A DNA stretch of 64,000 bases from Schizochytrium sp. TIO01 (lineage: Eukaryota > Sar > Bigyra > Thraustochytrida > Thraustochytriidae), in contig SMSO01000035.1 of assembly GCA_004764695.1 (NCBI GenBank), positions 2,044,001-2,108,000 on the forward strand. Direction: 5' to 3'. Under the pieces are notes generated by a model. The model was not told the origin of the DNA. It ran no database searches and was given only the letters and a program-made list of their open reading frames with translations. The position numbers and the translations under genes were made by a program. Shown here in pieces: positions 1,482 to 6,519 of this stretch (position 1 is the first letter of the stretch; each line of letters begins with the position of its first letter).

Positions 1482-4400
1482 ATGGGCGTGCGTGGCACGG
1501 CGTCCTCCACGTCCTCGGCGGCGGCCACTCCGCTTCCGCAAAGCGGCGTGGCGATTGGAGCTCATGAAAATCAAGGCCTCGCAGCACGCTCGAGCGAGGT
1601 CGGCGGCGAGGAAATTCGCGGCCGCGAAATTCAGGGACATGAAATTCGAGATCACGAAATTCGAGGTCGCGAAATTCGACCCCATGATAGCCGAGATTTC
1701 GGAGCACAACAAAGTATTATGCAGGACAAACGCAGACCTGAAAACCGTGGCGTTGAGCAGCTGTCAAGGTATGAATCAAGGCTTAATTTCTTTTCTAGGC
1801 TAGGACGCGTTCATCCAGAGCTCTTCAAGCACCCTGGATGTGCAGGTCTTGGTGTAGCACCCGGTAAATCAAGATGGCCATCTGTGGGGTCCAAAGCATT
1901 GGATCTTCACCAGCTTCTGCAGGAAGTCATGCGTCATGGAGGTTTCACTAATGTCGTGGAAAACAAACTCTGGAAGGTGTGTGGTCTCGCGCTTTATTTA
2001 CCACCTTCATGCACATCAATGTCAGCACAGTTGCGACAAAACTATCAAAAGTATCTTCTCGATTTCGAGGAGCTCTTGCGCGGAGAAATCGGTCCTGCTG
2101 GACATAGTGGTGGCCGTTCGCCAGCGGTTACCGTCAAGACCGAAGCAGGACGTAATAGCTCCACAAGCCCGTCAAAGGGACTTAAACCGCAACCTAACTT
2201 TTTTGACTTTGGCCATTTCGTGGACGATATGGTGCTTCAGGAGTCTGGCGCCATTGCAATGCACTACAATGCTCGAGCGATGATGCCACAGGAGCTTCTT
2301 GCCTTCCCAGAGTTTGGCTATGATTGCGCTCCGGAGGTTCGTTGTGTTTATTTGGATATTCGGAATCATATTCTATACCACTGGGCGATGGACGTGCGCC
2401 GAGAACTTCTGCTCGACGCCCACATCCTTGGGCCTCTTGCGACAAAATTCGGCAACTCCCCAGAATGCGAACCTTGGTTCGATCCCAAACTCATTACTCG
2501 TATCTTTACTTTTCTCGAGACCTGCGGTTCTATCAACACAGGTGCGTTTAAGTACTCCATCGAGCGGCCCTTGCGCGTGAGTGTTCCCGGTAACCTCGGT
2601 ATCGGATCCAAGCGGATTGTTGTCATTGGTGCCGGGTTTGCTGGCCTTGCAGCAGCAACGCAACTTAAACATTTTGGCCATCAAGTCATTGTGCTGGAAG
2701 GCCGAGGCCGTGTTGGAGGTCGTGCTTTCACTGATCGCAGCTTTGGAGGCGCTGCTGTTGATGTAGGCGCTATGCTCATCACCGGTGGTGTCGCACATCC
2801 CGCTCGTATGCTCAGTGACCAGCTTGGCCAGCCGTTACACCCCGTTAATCCAACGTGCCCCTTGTATTGGAGCGATGGACGTAAACGTGCACGCGTTACC
2901 GAGGAAATGGACCAGGCAGTAGAGGCATCGTTTCTTAATGCCACAGAACGTGCTGTCGAAGAGAAAGTGGTACTTCTCACACAGGATCGTTTCTCGGGTC
3001 GTGTAGATGTTGAGGAATTTCGAAAAGACCCAAAACCACAGCAACTGCAGGCTACTAATGGAGACCGTAGTTTGACGACTCCAACAGCTACGCAGAACAG
3101 AAAAGAAATTATCCAGAATATCTTATCACCAGCAATGCTCAAAGAATTTGCTATCATCCCCGAAGTCCAAAAGCGAAGACCTTTGACCCAACTTGATGCC
3201 GGAATTGATGCTCACGATCCTCGTGTTCCACAACTCCACTCTGAGTTATCCCCTGCTGTGGAGGCTGCTTCCATGGCATCTACACCTGTAGAGACCTTGC
3301 TGGAACGGGTTCGCAGTGTCATTGAGGTAGCTGGGCAATGCTCTACACTAGCCAAGGAGGATGAAGCTCGAGTGCAGGCTGCTTTGAATCGCTTTGAAGG
3401 TTCTGAGCGTATTAGTGAAGGCTTCCAGGTGGCAAAGGACTCAATCGATCGTGCGACATTAGCTGTCCAACATGCTAACGGGGTTCTAGACGATGTTCGA
3501 CGTATGAACAAAACCTTTGCGCCGTTTGTTCCTAGTGAAACGAGCACTGCAACTGAGGTGGACTCAAATACAGCGGATAAGGTTATGCGCAAGTTTGATG
3601 TCTCGCTGCAATCAGCATTGGACCACTTCCTTTCTGTAAGGCCTCCAACTGAACCTGACCAAAAGGCTCTGTTGCAGTGGCATATGGCAAACCTAGAATA
3701 TGCTTGTGCGACTTCTCTCTCCAATGTTTCTAACACTCACTGGGACCAGGATGATGAGTACTCTTTTCAGGGCCCACACTACCTCCTACCACACGGTTTT
3801 AGCACACTTGCCTATGGTCTTGCTAACAGCGTTCGCCATGATATCCACTTTGGTGCGAAAGTAGAAACCATCAAGTCTGAAGTTGCAGCTGATGGTGTAG
3901 TGGTTGAATATGAAGATGCAGCTGGATCCAAGGGCTTAATTGAGGCCGATGCTGTACTTGTTACTGTCCCTCTCGGGGTTTTGAAGCGGAATGAGTTGCG
4001 TTTCGAGCCTCCTCTCCCTCCATGGAAACAAGGTGCTATTGATCGCCTTGGCTTTGGTAATCTTAACAAGGTTGTGGTCGAGTTTCCTGAAATCTTCTGG
4101 AGCAAGGAGTTTGATGTCTGTGGTCGTGTAGTGACGGCAAACGACGAGGCGGGTACTCGTCTCGTGGTTCCTGGCCCTTCAGAATCATCATCTTCTAGTG
4201 AATTCGATTACGATGAGCATCGTGGCGAATTTTTTACATTTTGGCCACTCAATCGATGCCTTCCTGACAGCCGGCCAATTCTTATGTTCCTCGTTGCAGG
4301 CAAAGCTGCCCACAATGTGGAGAAGGCGGAACCGTCTGCGGTCGTCGACAGTCTCATGCTTGTGCTTCGTAAGATGTTCATGAACCAACAGATACCTGAT

Positions 4401-5459
4401 CCGGTGCGTGCCACCGTTACGAAATGGTCATCTGATCCGATGGCTCGTGGCGCCTACTCTTATGTTGCAGTTGGCGCTACCGGCGAAGAATATGATTTAT
4501 TGGCGGAGCCTGTCAAGAACAAGATTTTCTTCGCTGGTGAAGCAACATCTCGCGAGCACCCAGCTACTACTGGAGGTGCCTACCTCAGTGGTATCCGAGA
4601 AGCTTGTAAGCTAGCTACACGTTTCGGCCGTGAAGTCCAGGTATCTCGCATCTTTCGTGATGCGCATACTTCTGCACACGAGCTCCTAGCAAACTCTGGC
4701 AACTGGTACGGACGCAAGGAATGGAAAAGACTCAAGCCAACTGATGCTTTTATTGAAAATGTTATGCATAAACGCGAAAATGATAATGAAGGGGATGTGG
4801 GTGCTACTTCCAAAGCAGGTACCACACCGACACCACGTGTGTCCCGTGCTGCATCAGCAGCTAGCCATGCAACAAGCAGGACGCGTGCAACCAGTGTAGG
4901 GATGGATTCTTCCTCAAATGCAACACCGACGTTAAAGAGGATGGCACCTAGTAAAGTTGACACCACCACACCCGTAAGAACTGCACCAAAGTACGGAGGG
5001 ACGCGGAGCAGCAGTAGTAGTAGTAGCAGTAGTAGCAGTAGCATAAGTAGTGGTAGCAGCATAAGCCGCAGCAAGCGAAGCTATGCCAATGGTGGATCGG
5101 GTACTAATGCTTTCTTCCCTGCACCAGCAGGTGTTGATACACCTGCTGGAATAACATCAGTAGGTAATAGCGTTGGAGCAGGGTCCACAAAACGTGGACG
5201 CTGGTCCGACGCGGGTGCAGCCAAAGAGGCCGCGATTAAATCTACAACGCTTGAAGAGGCTCAGCGTATCATAAACCCAAAACCTCGCGTGTACAAACAG
5301 CGTGGGCGACCCCGGCGCGGGCCGCCTCCTCGTGTTACACAAATGTCCACGGCGCCACTTTTAAGAGAGCTTTCACAGCGGAAACGCAAGCTCGAGCCCA
5401 CAGCACAGTCCAGTAAGATTGGAGCCGAGATTGCGGCGCTCTTGTACTCTGCTTCATAA
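1482..5459 (+). CDS. ARID-SWIRM-amine oxidase (LSD1/KDM1-like) protein with C-terminal AT-hook
   Basis: Single uninterrupted frame of 1325 residues. Domains in order: five EIRGR-type pentapeptide repeats (45-69); an ARID DNA-binding domain (about 98-197, with LDLHQLLQEVMRHGGF and LRQNYQKYLLDFE); a SWIRM domain (about 262-354); then a flavin amine oxidase starting with the FAD-binding VVIGAGFAGLAAA (about 380) and RVGGRAFT. About 300 residues of helical insertion sit where human LSD1 has its Tower domain, followed by the LSD1 signature LLQWHMANLEYACAT and WDQDDEYSFQGPH. The flavin-contacting lysine of NLNKVV is K863. The core closes with FFAGEATSREHPATTGGAYLSG. The tail has a poly-Ser run (5008-5061) and an AT-hook-like GRPRRGPPPR near residue 1275. 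Known LSD1 enzymes demethylate H3K4me1/2 in the nucleus; that role is inferred here. The ATG at 1482 starts the frame in a GC-rich leader. The 3' end lies 16 bp from the convergent TPR gene. Confidence 0.93.
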   Translation: MGVRGTASSTSSAAATPLPQSGVAIGAHENQGLAARSSEVGGEEIRGREIQGHEIRDHEIRGREIRPHDSRDFGAQQSIMQDKRRPENRGVEQLSRYESRLNFFSRLGRVHPELFKHPGCAGLGVAPGKSRWPSVGSKALDLHQLLQEVMRHGGFTNVVENKLWKVCGLALYLPPSCTSMSAQLRQNYQKYLLDFEELLRGEIGPAGHSGGRSPAVTVKTEAGRNSSTSPSKGLKPQPNFFDFGHFVDDMVLQESGAIAMHYNARAMMPQELLAFPEFGYDCAPEVRCVYLDIRNHILYHWAMDVRRELLLDAHILGPLATKFGNSPECEPWFDPKLITRIFTFLETCGSINTGAFKYSIERPLRVSVPGNLGIGSKRIVVIGAGFAGLAAATQLKHFGHQVIVLEGRGRVGGRAFTDRSFGGAAVDVGAMLITGGVAHPARMLSDQLGQPLHPVNPTCPLYWSDGRKRARVTEEMDQAVEASFLNATERAVEEKVVLLTQDRFSGRVDVEEFRKDPKPQQLQATNGDRSLTTPTATQNRKEIIQNILSPAMLKEFAIIPEVQKRRPLTQLDAGIDAHDPRVPQLHSELSPAVEAASMASTPVETLLERVRSVIEVAGQCSTLAKEDEARVQAALNRFEGSERISEGFQVAKDSIDRATLAVQHANGVLDDVRRMNKTFAPFVPSETSTATEVDSNTADKVMRKFDVSLQSALDHFLSVRPPTEPDQKALLQWHMANLEYACATSLSNVSNTHWDQDDEYSFQGPHYLLPHGFSTLAYGLANSVRHDIHFGAKVETIKSEVAADGVVVEYEDAAGSKGLIEADAVLVTVPLGVLKRNELRFEPPLPPWKQGAIDRLGFGNLNKVVVEFPEIFWSKEFDVCGRVVTANDEAGTRLVVPGPSESSSSSEFDYDEHRGEFFTFWPLNRCLPDSRPILMFLVAGKAAHNVEKAEPSAVVDSLMLVLRKMFMNQQIPDPVRATVTKWSSDPMARGAYSYVAVGATGEEYDLLAEPVKNKIFFAGEATSREHPATTGGAYLSGIREACKLATRFGREVQVSRIFRDAHTSAHELLANSGNWYGRKEWKRLKPTDAFIENVMHKRENDNEGDVGATSKAGTTPTPRVSRAASAASHATSRTRATSVGMDSSSNATPTLKRMAPSKVDTTTPVRTAPKYGGTRSSSSSSSSSSSSISSGSSISRSKRSYANGGSGTNAFFPAPAGVDTPAGITSVGNSVGAGSTKRGRWSDAGAAKEAAIKSTTLEEAQRIINPKPRVYKQRGRPRRGPPPRVTQMSTAPLLRELSQRKRKLEPTAQSSKIGAEIAALLYSAS
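1611..1685 (+). repeat. 15-bp coding minisatellite (5 units) in the ARID-LSD1 N-terminus
   Basis: Five tandem 15-bp units starting gaaattc encode EIRGR, EIQGH, EIRDH, EIRGR and EIRPH. The unit is a multiple of three, so copy-number changes would keep the frame. The region lies in the probably disordered N-terminus before the ARID domain. Confidence 0.8.
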
Positions 5460-5475
5460 AAATCACAACAAATTA

Positions 5476-6519
5476 TCATGATGAGGAAGATGATGATGCA
5501 GCTCCACCATTCTGCTCACTAGCTAATTTCTGAGTAACAAATGTTCTAAACCTGTTGACTTTTTCCCTGACGCCTACAAATTGCTCGTCTTGCGCCAAAG
5601 ACGGCTCAGAGGCAATGAGACGGGTGCAAAGATCCTGTGCATTCTCAAGACACTCGTCAGCCAGAGAAGCCTGTGCTGCTGCCATGTGACACTCAGCAAG
5701 GAGTAGCCAAATCTCCACAATAGTGTCATTCTCATTAATAAGGCGTTCCATGAGCGGGATAGCCCGTACACATTCACCAACCTCCATGAGAATACGGGCT
5801 GTTGCTGCACGGAATTCAAACGGGATCAAAGTCTCAACATCCTCCTCTTCTGCTTGATCAAGAAGCGGCGTGGCGTCCATCATCATGTCATCGTCGTCGC
5901 CTCCTTGGTCTGTATAACCAAGTGCTTTTTGGATTCTGTCAAGGGCATCGAGCACAAGTGGCTTGGCATCATCCGGGCGGTTTTGACTGAGGCGAAAGCT
6001 CGCCATGCACTGAAGTGCTTGCGGATGTCCAGGGTACACCTGAAGTGCCCGAGTGAGGTACTTGTCACAGCGAGCTTCGGCATCATCTTCAAAGCACAAA
6101 TCACTCATAAAAAGCTCGGCCAAACTGCAGTATGCACAGGCAAGCTGACGGGCAGACAACTTAGTTTCAATGTGCTCAGCACCCTTGGGCTCGCATGCCT
6201 GAAGTTGTTTCTCCAAAAGATCAACACCACGTTCGTAGGCCGCAAGGGCATCCTGGTTCCCAGAGATCTGGCCCAGGTACATGTAAAAAGTCGGGTCATT
6301 TGGAATGCTATCCACACCACGCTTGAACATCTCGCGAGCCTCGTCAACGCGTCCCATATCCATGTATGTTTCACCAAGTACGCGAAGAAGATCTACATGG
6401 CGCGGTTCTTGTTCCAAACCCTTGAGCAGGAATTGCACGGCAAGATCTTCATTGCCACCAGCCAGAAGCTGCTCGCCCTTGATGAGCAGTTGGTCAGCAG
6501 AATGTTTGGGATCGCTCAT
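5476..6519 (-). CDS. TPR protein, probable Acl4-type ribosomal-protein assembly chaperone
   Basis: 347 residues starting at the ATG 6517-6519. The first 110 residues are tandem TPR helices (AVQFLLKGLEQEPRHVDLLR, then GETYMDMGRVDEAREMFKRG and NDPTFYMYLGQI). An acidic linker DDDDMMM follows near 200, then PFEFRAATARILMEVGECVRAIPLMERL and VEIWLLLAECH. This order (TPRs, acidic patch, FEFR helix pair) resembles yeast Acl4, the dedicated chaperone of ribosomal protein uL4/RPL4 in cytosol and nucleus. The assignment rests on remembered family features. The protein ends in a poly-Ser tail after EQNGGAASS. It is convergent with the ARID-LSD1 gene, so the two 3' UTRs must overlap. Confidence 0.8.
   Translation of the reverse strand: MSDPKHSADQLLIKGEQLLAGGNEDLAVQFLLKGLEQEPRHVDLLRVLGETYMDMGRVDEAREMFKRGVDSIPNDPTFYMYLGQISGNQDALAAYERGVDLLEKQLQACEPKGAEHIETKLSARQLACAYCSLAELFMSDLCFEDDAEARCDKYLTRALQVYPGHPQALQCMASFRLSQNRPDDAKPLVLDALDRIQKALGYTDQGGDDDDMMMDATPLLDQAEEEDVETLIPFEFRAATARILMEVGECVRAIPLMERLINENDTIVEIWLLLAECHMAAAQASLADECLENAQDLCTRLIASEPSLAQDEQFVGVREKVNRFRTFVTQKLASEQNGGAASSSSSS

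Follow-up and report, generated by a model that had tools for sequence, protein, structure and literature searches.

A KDM1-family protein of Schizochytrium sp. TIO01 in which an ARID is joined to SWIRM and amine oxidase domains and the Tower appears to be missing

Introduction

How could a histone demethylase of the LSD1 kind act on nucleosomes if it lacked the arm on which its animal relatives depend? In animal LSD1 that arm, the Tower, binds CoREST and is needed for activity on nucleosomes. The question is raised by a gene in a 64,000-nucleotide stretch of the genome of the thraustochytrid Schizochytrium sp. TIO01 (contig SMSO01000035.1, positions 2,044,001 to 2,108,000; hereafter, the window), in which an ARID, a SWIRM, and an amine oxidase domain follow one another. 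We posit that the product of this gene, P0001, is a flavin adenine dinucleotide (FAD)-dependent demethylase of mono- and dimethylated lysine 4 of histone H3 (H3K4me1/me2) that belongs to the SWIRM-amine oxidase (KDM1) family and is held on DNA in cis by its own ARID, a reading that we consider moderately probable as a whole. It is supported by the fact that the three domains share one frame and by the ranking of solved relatives, in which LSD1 and LSD2 stand well ahead of spermine oxidase.

One gene and one reading frame

The open reading frame at 1482..5459 (+) runs uninterrupted from ATG to TAA over 1325 codons. By simple arithmetic that assumes even base use, about 1350 stop-free codons would be met at random with a chance of ~1e-28. 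We scored codon usage with a scan for which five other genes from this genome served as the training set. The frame ranked first among the three forward ones in 21 of 21 blocks, and these cover the linker between ARID and SWIRM as well as the insertion discussed below. Its smallest margin (0.25 versus 0.07 per codon) fell in the first block, and the best reverse frame outscored it in two blocks, at 1123-1188 and in the stub from 1321. When the genome (64.06 Mb in 37 contigs) was searched with P0001, residues 1-1325 were recovered as a single stretch, and none of the nine genome matches was a second full copy. Could the ARID and the oxidase nevertheless be made as separate products, through an alternative start or splicing, so that the fusion exists on paper only? 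A stop-free frame that leads the forward frames through its linkers and is found in one genomic piece argues against this idea, which we regard as highly improbable. The gene and the domain fusion are real and, judging from the sequence, the fusion is probably functional.

A KDM1 core joined to a SWIRM and an ARID

The oxidase portion gives a Pfam Amino_oxidase match at E 1.4e-77, and the closest relatives of P0001 in the PDB are, in order, LSD1 (1.1e-86), LSD2 (2.5e-76), and spermine oxidase (7.6e-41). Over the core, P0001 is 43.5% identical to LSD1 (395 positions) and 40.8% identical to LSD2 (392 positions). The human LSD1 and LSD2 sequences used here agree letter for letter with the PDB chains over the aligned parts. 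Alignment with MAFFT sets K863 of P0001 opposite K661, the flavin-site lysine of LSD1, and 21 of the 27 LSD1 positions compared are identical, among them K661, D553, D555, D556, W531, H564, Y761, and T335. We take these positions to be functionally weighty and presume that the acidic residues contact H3. Is P0001 instead a polyamine-type oxidase, inactive on histones, that has acquired nuclear domains? The amine oxidase fold is common to spermine and polyamine oxidases, which P0001 also matches, but the E-values for LSD1 and LSD2 are ~45 and ~35 orders of magnitude better than that for spermine oxidase, a SWIRM is present, and the acidic residues presumed to contact H3 are kept; we find this alternative extremely improbable. 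P0001 carries both the SWIRM and the amine oxidase by which KDM1 genes are defined (PMC2579438). At E<=1, Pfam reported no JmjN or JmjC domain, no zinc finger family (CW, or C4H2C2 as in LSD2), and no HMG box in the whole protein, nor was an HMG box found at E<=0.01 in the tail searched alone.

The SWIRM (PF04433) is divergent, scoring 25.0 bits in protein mode, below the cut-off of 28.6, and 29 bits in genome mode, above it. Searched by itself, the stretch matched five PDB sequences at E<=1, four of which are LSD1 SWIRM constructs; the top match (E 0.013) is 2dce, a "KIAA1915 protein" that we take to be the SWIRM of MYSM1. The genome-mode search found one SWIRM in the genome, that of P0001, a count to be read as a lower bound given that the search is insensitive: genes of the SWI3 and ADA2 types, which are expected to carry a SWIRM, gave no match.

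The ARID (PF01388) scores 57.2 bits in protein mode (E 2e-15, curated cut-off 24.1) and 62.9 bits in genome mode, and the first ARID helix, judged by eye, probably lies just upstream of the Pfam core, at residues ~95-129. The closest solved structures are those of Dead ringer and ARID3A, and the identity to the Dead ringer segment is 38% over 68 positions. Does this imply that the enzyme is steered to A/T-rich sites? The ARIDs of Dead ringer and ARID3A are AT-selective, and many other ARIDs are not. A rival view is that the ARID of P0001 has no sequence preference on DNA and serves mainly to raise affinity, in which case a chromatin-bound KDM1 enzyme would do no A/T-rich targeting. The core of the domain is complete, but its sequence does not fix specificity, and its identity to each of the four remaining ARIDs in the genome is 24-31%; that its best solved matches are the two AT-selective proteins counts the other way. 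We place this view only a little short of an even call, and targeting of A/T-rich sites by the ARID would at present be a guess.

A second DNA-binding element may lie in the C-terminal tail, where RGRP occurs once in the protein, at residue 1274, with basic residues flanking the GRP core (KQRGRPR). A pattern of this type appeared in 21 of 20000 shuffled tails, and Pfam reported no AT-hook family in P0001 at E<=1; a lone motif that is absent from the Pfam report also suits an ARID without sequence preference.

An earlier note on this stretch, made from its letters without database searches, had described a single frame at 1482-5459 encoding an ARID, a SWIRM, an FAD-binding core with catalytic lysine K863, and a C-terminal AT-hook. 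The ATG-to-stop frame, the oxidase core, and the lysine are all borne out by the results above; the SWIRM is there in divergent form, passing its cut-off in genome mode only; and the profile search that could have shown the ARID to be missing found it well above threshold. The AT-hook survives as one KQRGRPR motif, not as a domain that Pfam reports.

The Tower site and the insertion

Where, then, does P0001 differ from LSD1 within the oxidase? We compared the spacing of conserved anchors, the LSD1 Tower lying between SLGQALE and xWH. Between SLxxAL and xWH there are 114 residues in LSD1, 20 in LSD2, and 15 in P0001. Between VExxF and SLxxAL, on the other hand, there are 24 in LSD1, 20 in LSD2, and 223 in P0001. 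In a motif scan, the SLGQAL segment (the LSD1 window from residue 405) was the top-scoring LSD1 window, at 15.5 against 10.5 for the runner-up. The SLxxAL-type segment can be said to precede the Tower because LSD2, which has no Tower, keeps its counterpart PLGEKIE 20 residues past the first anchor, much as LSD1 does (PMC2579438 and PMC11118440 for the absent Tower). The insertion of P0001 stands before this segment and is therefore not at the Tower site, so that by anchor spacing P0001 looks Tower-less.

This result revises two claims of the earlier note. It had placed the insertion at the Tower position, where the anchors leave 15 residues, and it had stressed that the inserted sequence differs from the CoREST-binding Tower, a comparison that by anchor spacing is between two different places. 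It had also proposed structure prediction of the insertion as a check for a two-helix Tower; two long helices are indeed predicted, at low confidence and in what the anchors mark as the wrong place for a Tower.

What might the insertion be? Pfam places no family in it (2925-3599) at E<=0.01. AlphaFold2, run without an alignment, gave a model of the insertion with a low mean pLDDT (predicted local distance difference test score) of 45.0 and a model of the oxidase at 34.4 that is useless as a fold, and we used both solely for the rough agreement of helix positions (residues 582-637 and 644-682 in the former, 603-638 and 646-682 in the latter, at low confidence). Heptad enrichment in 582-637 and 644-682 reached z values of 4.7 and 4.1, versus 3.9 and 2.2 for the LSD1 Tower helices, in segments that were picked after the model was seen; a shorter stretch, 600-637, gave 2.8, and the controls, one taken from elsewhere in this insertion and one consisting of 70 residues from the insertion of a paralog on C31, gave 0.0 and 1.1. 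Based on these models and tests, the insertion probably holds two amphipathic helices, and a helical hairpin is plausible.

Paralogs, other ARIDs, and partners in the genome

The genome holds two further LSD1-like proteins, on C31 (L012 3048-5696) and C24 (L013 2071-4326), for which the PDB order is likewise LSD1, then LSD2, then polyamine oxidases, and whose cores are 40.4% and 37.7% identical to that of P0001. Both have an enlarged loop at the site of the P0001 insertion (216 and 92 residues, respectively, versus 24 in LSD1) and 16 residues at the Tower site. Pfam found no SWIRM in the paralogs, either in the two proteins and a longer C24 frame at E<=0.01 or in 10 of 31 forward frames of at least 45 residues at E<=5. 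Weaker matches to P0001 also occur at C35 and C30.

Five ARIDs were matched in the genome: those of P0001, a KDM5-type protein, an SNF2 protein, a small protein, and a very long frame. The KDM5-type gene (L015) encodes JmjN, ARID, PHD, and JmjC domains. The SNF2 protein (L016 367-7101, +) is a chromodomain-SNF2 remodeller whose single frame also encodes a bromodomain and an ARID. The very long frame (L014 2447-9499, +) shows, by eye, bromodomain-like and HMG-like stretches that recall polybromo.

The putative substrate is available, in that histone H3 of this genome has an intact K4 tail (ARTKQTARKS). A search for CoREST homologs, which the earlier note had suggested, was carried out through the ELM2 domain and gave 0 matches, with two candidates scored, in a search that had no positive control and was silent in 14 control genomes too.

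A proposed mechanism and what weighs against it

Taken together, these observations are consistent with a model in which the N-terminal ARID, aided by tail stretches that are basic or resemble an AT-hook, would anchor P0001 on DNA beside its target nucleosome, where the KDM1 core would demethylate H3K4me1/me2. With no Tower at the Tower site, the grip on the nucleosome may be supplied in cis by the ARID, a use to which fission-yeast Lsd1/2 may put their HMG box. We speculate that the helical insertion, near the FAD half of the oxidase, most likely gives the enzyme a surface of its own on which partners dock. The sequence itself shows the domain order, the conserved active site, and the short Tower site; substrate, DNA tethering, and the role of the insertion are what we infer.

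Several observations weigh against this model. The SWIRM is weak when taken alone. Six of the 27 LSD1 positions are changed (333, 334, 538, 540, 559, and 561), N540 being replaced by Cys, as also in LSD2, and E559 by Ser. An unrooted tree of five sequences (P0001, LSD1, LSD2, and the C31 and C24 paralogs), too few for firm placement, splits P0001 and LSD2 from LSD1 and the paralogs with a support of 82; it weakly opposes a plain "LSD1" label, and "KDM1 family" would be the safe name. A search for N-SET (Set1), made with no positive control, gave no match in the genome. Finally, MAFFT, applied to the same five sequences, set the LSD1 Tower opposite the P0001 insertion and SLGQAL opposite a gap, and phmmer paired the corresponding LSD2 helix with the final part of the LSD1 Tower. 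The phmmer pairing may be what a local aligner does in avoiding a long gap, and for the Tower site we preferred anchor spacing and the motif scan to both programs.

Could the insertion nonetheless be a Tower that has been relocated or misaligned, with a CoREST-like partner that the search missed? The MAFFT alignment would have it so, the two long amphipathic helices are enriched in heptads to a Tower-like degree, and the search for ELM2 lacked a positive control. The spacing of the anchors is hard to square with this idea: the LSD2 segment lies 20 residues past the VExxF counterpart and that of LSD1 24 past it, and the P0001 segment follows the insertion. We judge a relocated Tower to be quite unlikely.

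Is catalysis needed at all? The oxidase could be chiefly a scaffold in which demethylation is dispensable, as the catalytic mutants of fission-yeast Lsd1/2 suggest for part of what those proteins do. These mutants have only weak silencing defects and deletions of the C terminus and of the HMG box have stronger ones (PMC7226997), and in P0001 the helical insertion could dock partners. Retention of the active-site residues, including the flavin-site lysine, argues rather for selection on catalysis, and a mainly scaffolding role strikes us as unlikely.

A more far-reaching version of the demethylase model can be put forward tentatively. In it, the only SWIRM-bearing KDM1 protein of this lineage would have lost the grip that Tower and CoREST provide, would have acquired an ARID along with a helical hairpin that sits one segment away, and would have become a self-sufficient nucleosome demethylase. 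Within a single genome, ARIDs would then have been joined independently to H3K4 demethylases of unrelated chemistry, a flavin KDM1 enzyme and the iron enzyme KDM5. We would sooner doubt than accept all of this at once.

Comparison with known systems

Neither DNA binding in cis nor action without a Tower would be new to the KDM1 family. Fission-yeast Lsd1 and Lsd2 combine a SWIRM-oxidase core and a DNA-binding module in one chain, and cells die when the HMG box is deleted from Lsd2 and are impaired when it is deleted from Lsd1 (PMC7226997); their module is a C-terminal HMG box, whereas that of P0001 is an N-terminal ARID. Fungal KDM1 proteins have an insertion at the position of the animal Tower and KDM1B has none (PMC2579438), in contrast to P0001, with its insertion elsewhere. 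Human LSD1 (KDM1A), the best-scoring solved relative, shares the SWIRM and the oxidase and differs in its CoREST-binding Tower, in place of which P0001 has its 15 residues and an insertion one segment earlier; the descriptions of LSD1 that we compared mention no ARID. Human LSD2 (KDM1B) is alike in having a SWIRM and an oxidase without a Tower and differs in its CW and C4H2C2 zinc fingers (PMC11118440), families of which P0001 shows none at the threshold given above.

The earlier note held that plant LSD1 proteins rely on partners such as CoREST, a view contradicted by the report that CoREST homologs are not encoded in plants and that the Tower is missing from LDL1, LDL2, and FLD, LDL1 being active all the same (PMC6558185). 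In LDL3 the Tower position is taken up by a small insertion (94 residues in Physcomitrella), and the tail holds a TFIIS-like domain; these SWIRM-oxidase proteins thus resemble P0001 in a Tower that is absent or mostly reduced, and differ from it in that the text at hand mentions no ARID among them (PMC6558185). The same source lists DNA-binding domains in fungal homologs (HMG box) and in LSD2 (zinc finger). The idea of a demethylase with built-in DNA-binding modules, as the earlier note had it, is supported, then, and it is not new in kind.

KDM5 (JARID1) proteins also pair an ARID with an H3K4 demethylase. They demethylate H3K4 by the iron chemistry of a JmjC domain, not with a flavin, and P0001 has no JmjC.

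How novel is the architecture? Among the titles listed by literature searches on ARID-SWIRM-oxidase fusions and on protist or thraustochytrid demethylases, none deals with such a fusion. Iyer, Aravind, and colleagues, in a survey of chromatin proteins of protists, may already have shown this architecture, and we do not claim that it is absent from print. The word ARID does not occur in the main text of PMC2579438 or of PMC3145265, the latter of which counts three LSD1 homologs each in the diatom Phaeodactylum and the brown alga Ectocarpus. Two pattern searches of a viral contig collection (31 and 27 matches) and two of a prokaryotic one (59 and 136 matches) gave nothing that tblastn confirmed, a result that is uninformative on the spread of the fusion among eukaryotes. 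Relative to the literature compared, what is new is the ARID as the DNA-binding module and the displaced helical insertion; P0001 is still a variant within an established family of enzymes and does not amount to a new kind of system.

Why would such a variant matter? An ARID-bearing KDM1 protein would extend the picture of a "relatively constant" architecture (PMC2579438) and, beside KDM5, would bring an ARID and an H3K4 demethylase together for a second time, by a different chemistry. It would also be a natural test of the Tower-CoREST arm: if an ARID in cis can replace that arm, might what LSD1 needs on nucleosomes be DNA tethering?

Features of the gene and side observations

Table 1. Features read in the demethylase gene, in coordinates of the window
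Feature	Position	Strand	Basis
Whole open reading frame, 1325 residues (P0001)	1482..5459	+	Open reading frame reading, codon-usage scan
15-bp tandem repeat encoding charged E-I-R/Q-x-x repeats, N-terminal tail	1611..1697	+	Repeat search, translation
ARID, Pfam-matched core, residues 130-196	1869..2069	+	Pfam, genome-mode profile, PDB matches
SWIRM, residues 265-352, divergent, with a short extra loop	2274..2537	+	Pfam, genome-mode profile, PDB matches, alignments
Amine oxidase, FAD-binding N-terminal part, residues 376-484	2607..2933	+	Pfam, PDB search, alignment
Insertion of 223 residues, 485-707, N-terminal to the SLxxAL segment	2934..3602	+	Anchor spacing
Predicted long amphipathic helix A, residues 582-637 or 603-638 by model	3225..3395	+	Low-confidence models, heptad test
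Predicted long amphipathic helix B, residues 644-682 or 646-682 by model	3411..3527	+	Low-confidence models, heptad test
SLQSALD, counterpart of SLGQALE (N-terminal to the LSD1 Tower)	3603..3623	+	Motif scan, anchor spacing
Tower site, 15 residues only, Tower apparently absent	3624..3668	+	Anchor spacing
Amine oxidase, C-terminal catalytic part, residues 727-1048	3660..4625	+	Pfam, PDB search, alignment
K863, counterpart of LSD1 K661	4068..4070	+	Alignment
Serine-run low-complexity repeat, C-terminal tail	5007..5065	+	Repeat search
AT-hook-like KQRGRPR, residues 1272-1278	5295..5315	+	Motif reading; Pfam silent

Downstream, a TPR-repeat gene at 5476-6519 (-) is convergent with the demethylase gene, the two frames lying 16 bases apart. 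Elsewhere in the genome, matches to a PfaA-type polyunsaturated fatty acid synthase, a gene that marks thraustochytrids, span C4:608161-617209 in two adjacent open frames; they exceed the family cut-off in one of these frames and in 0 of 14 control genomes. An 18S gene was also read, and of the four matches to 18S primers three are located ~10 kb into a contig, counted from base 1 (C27, C28, and C29).

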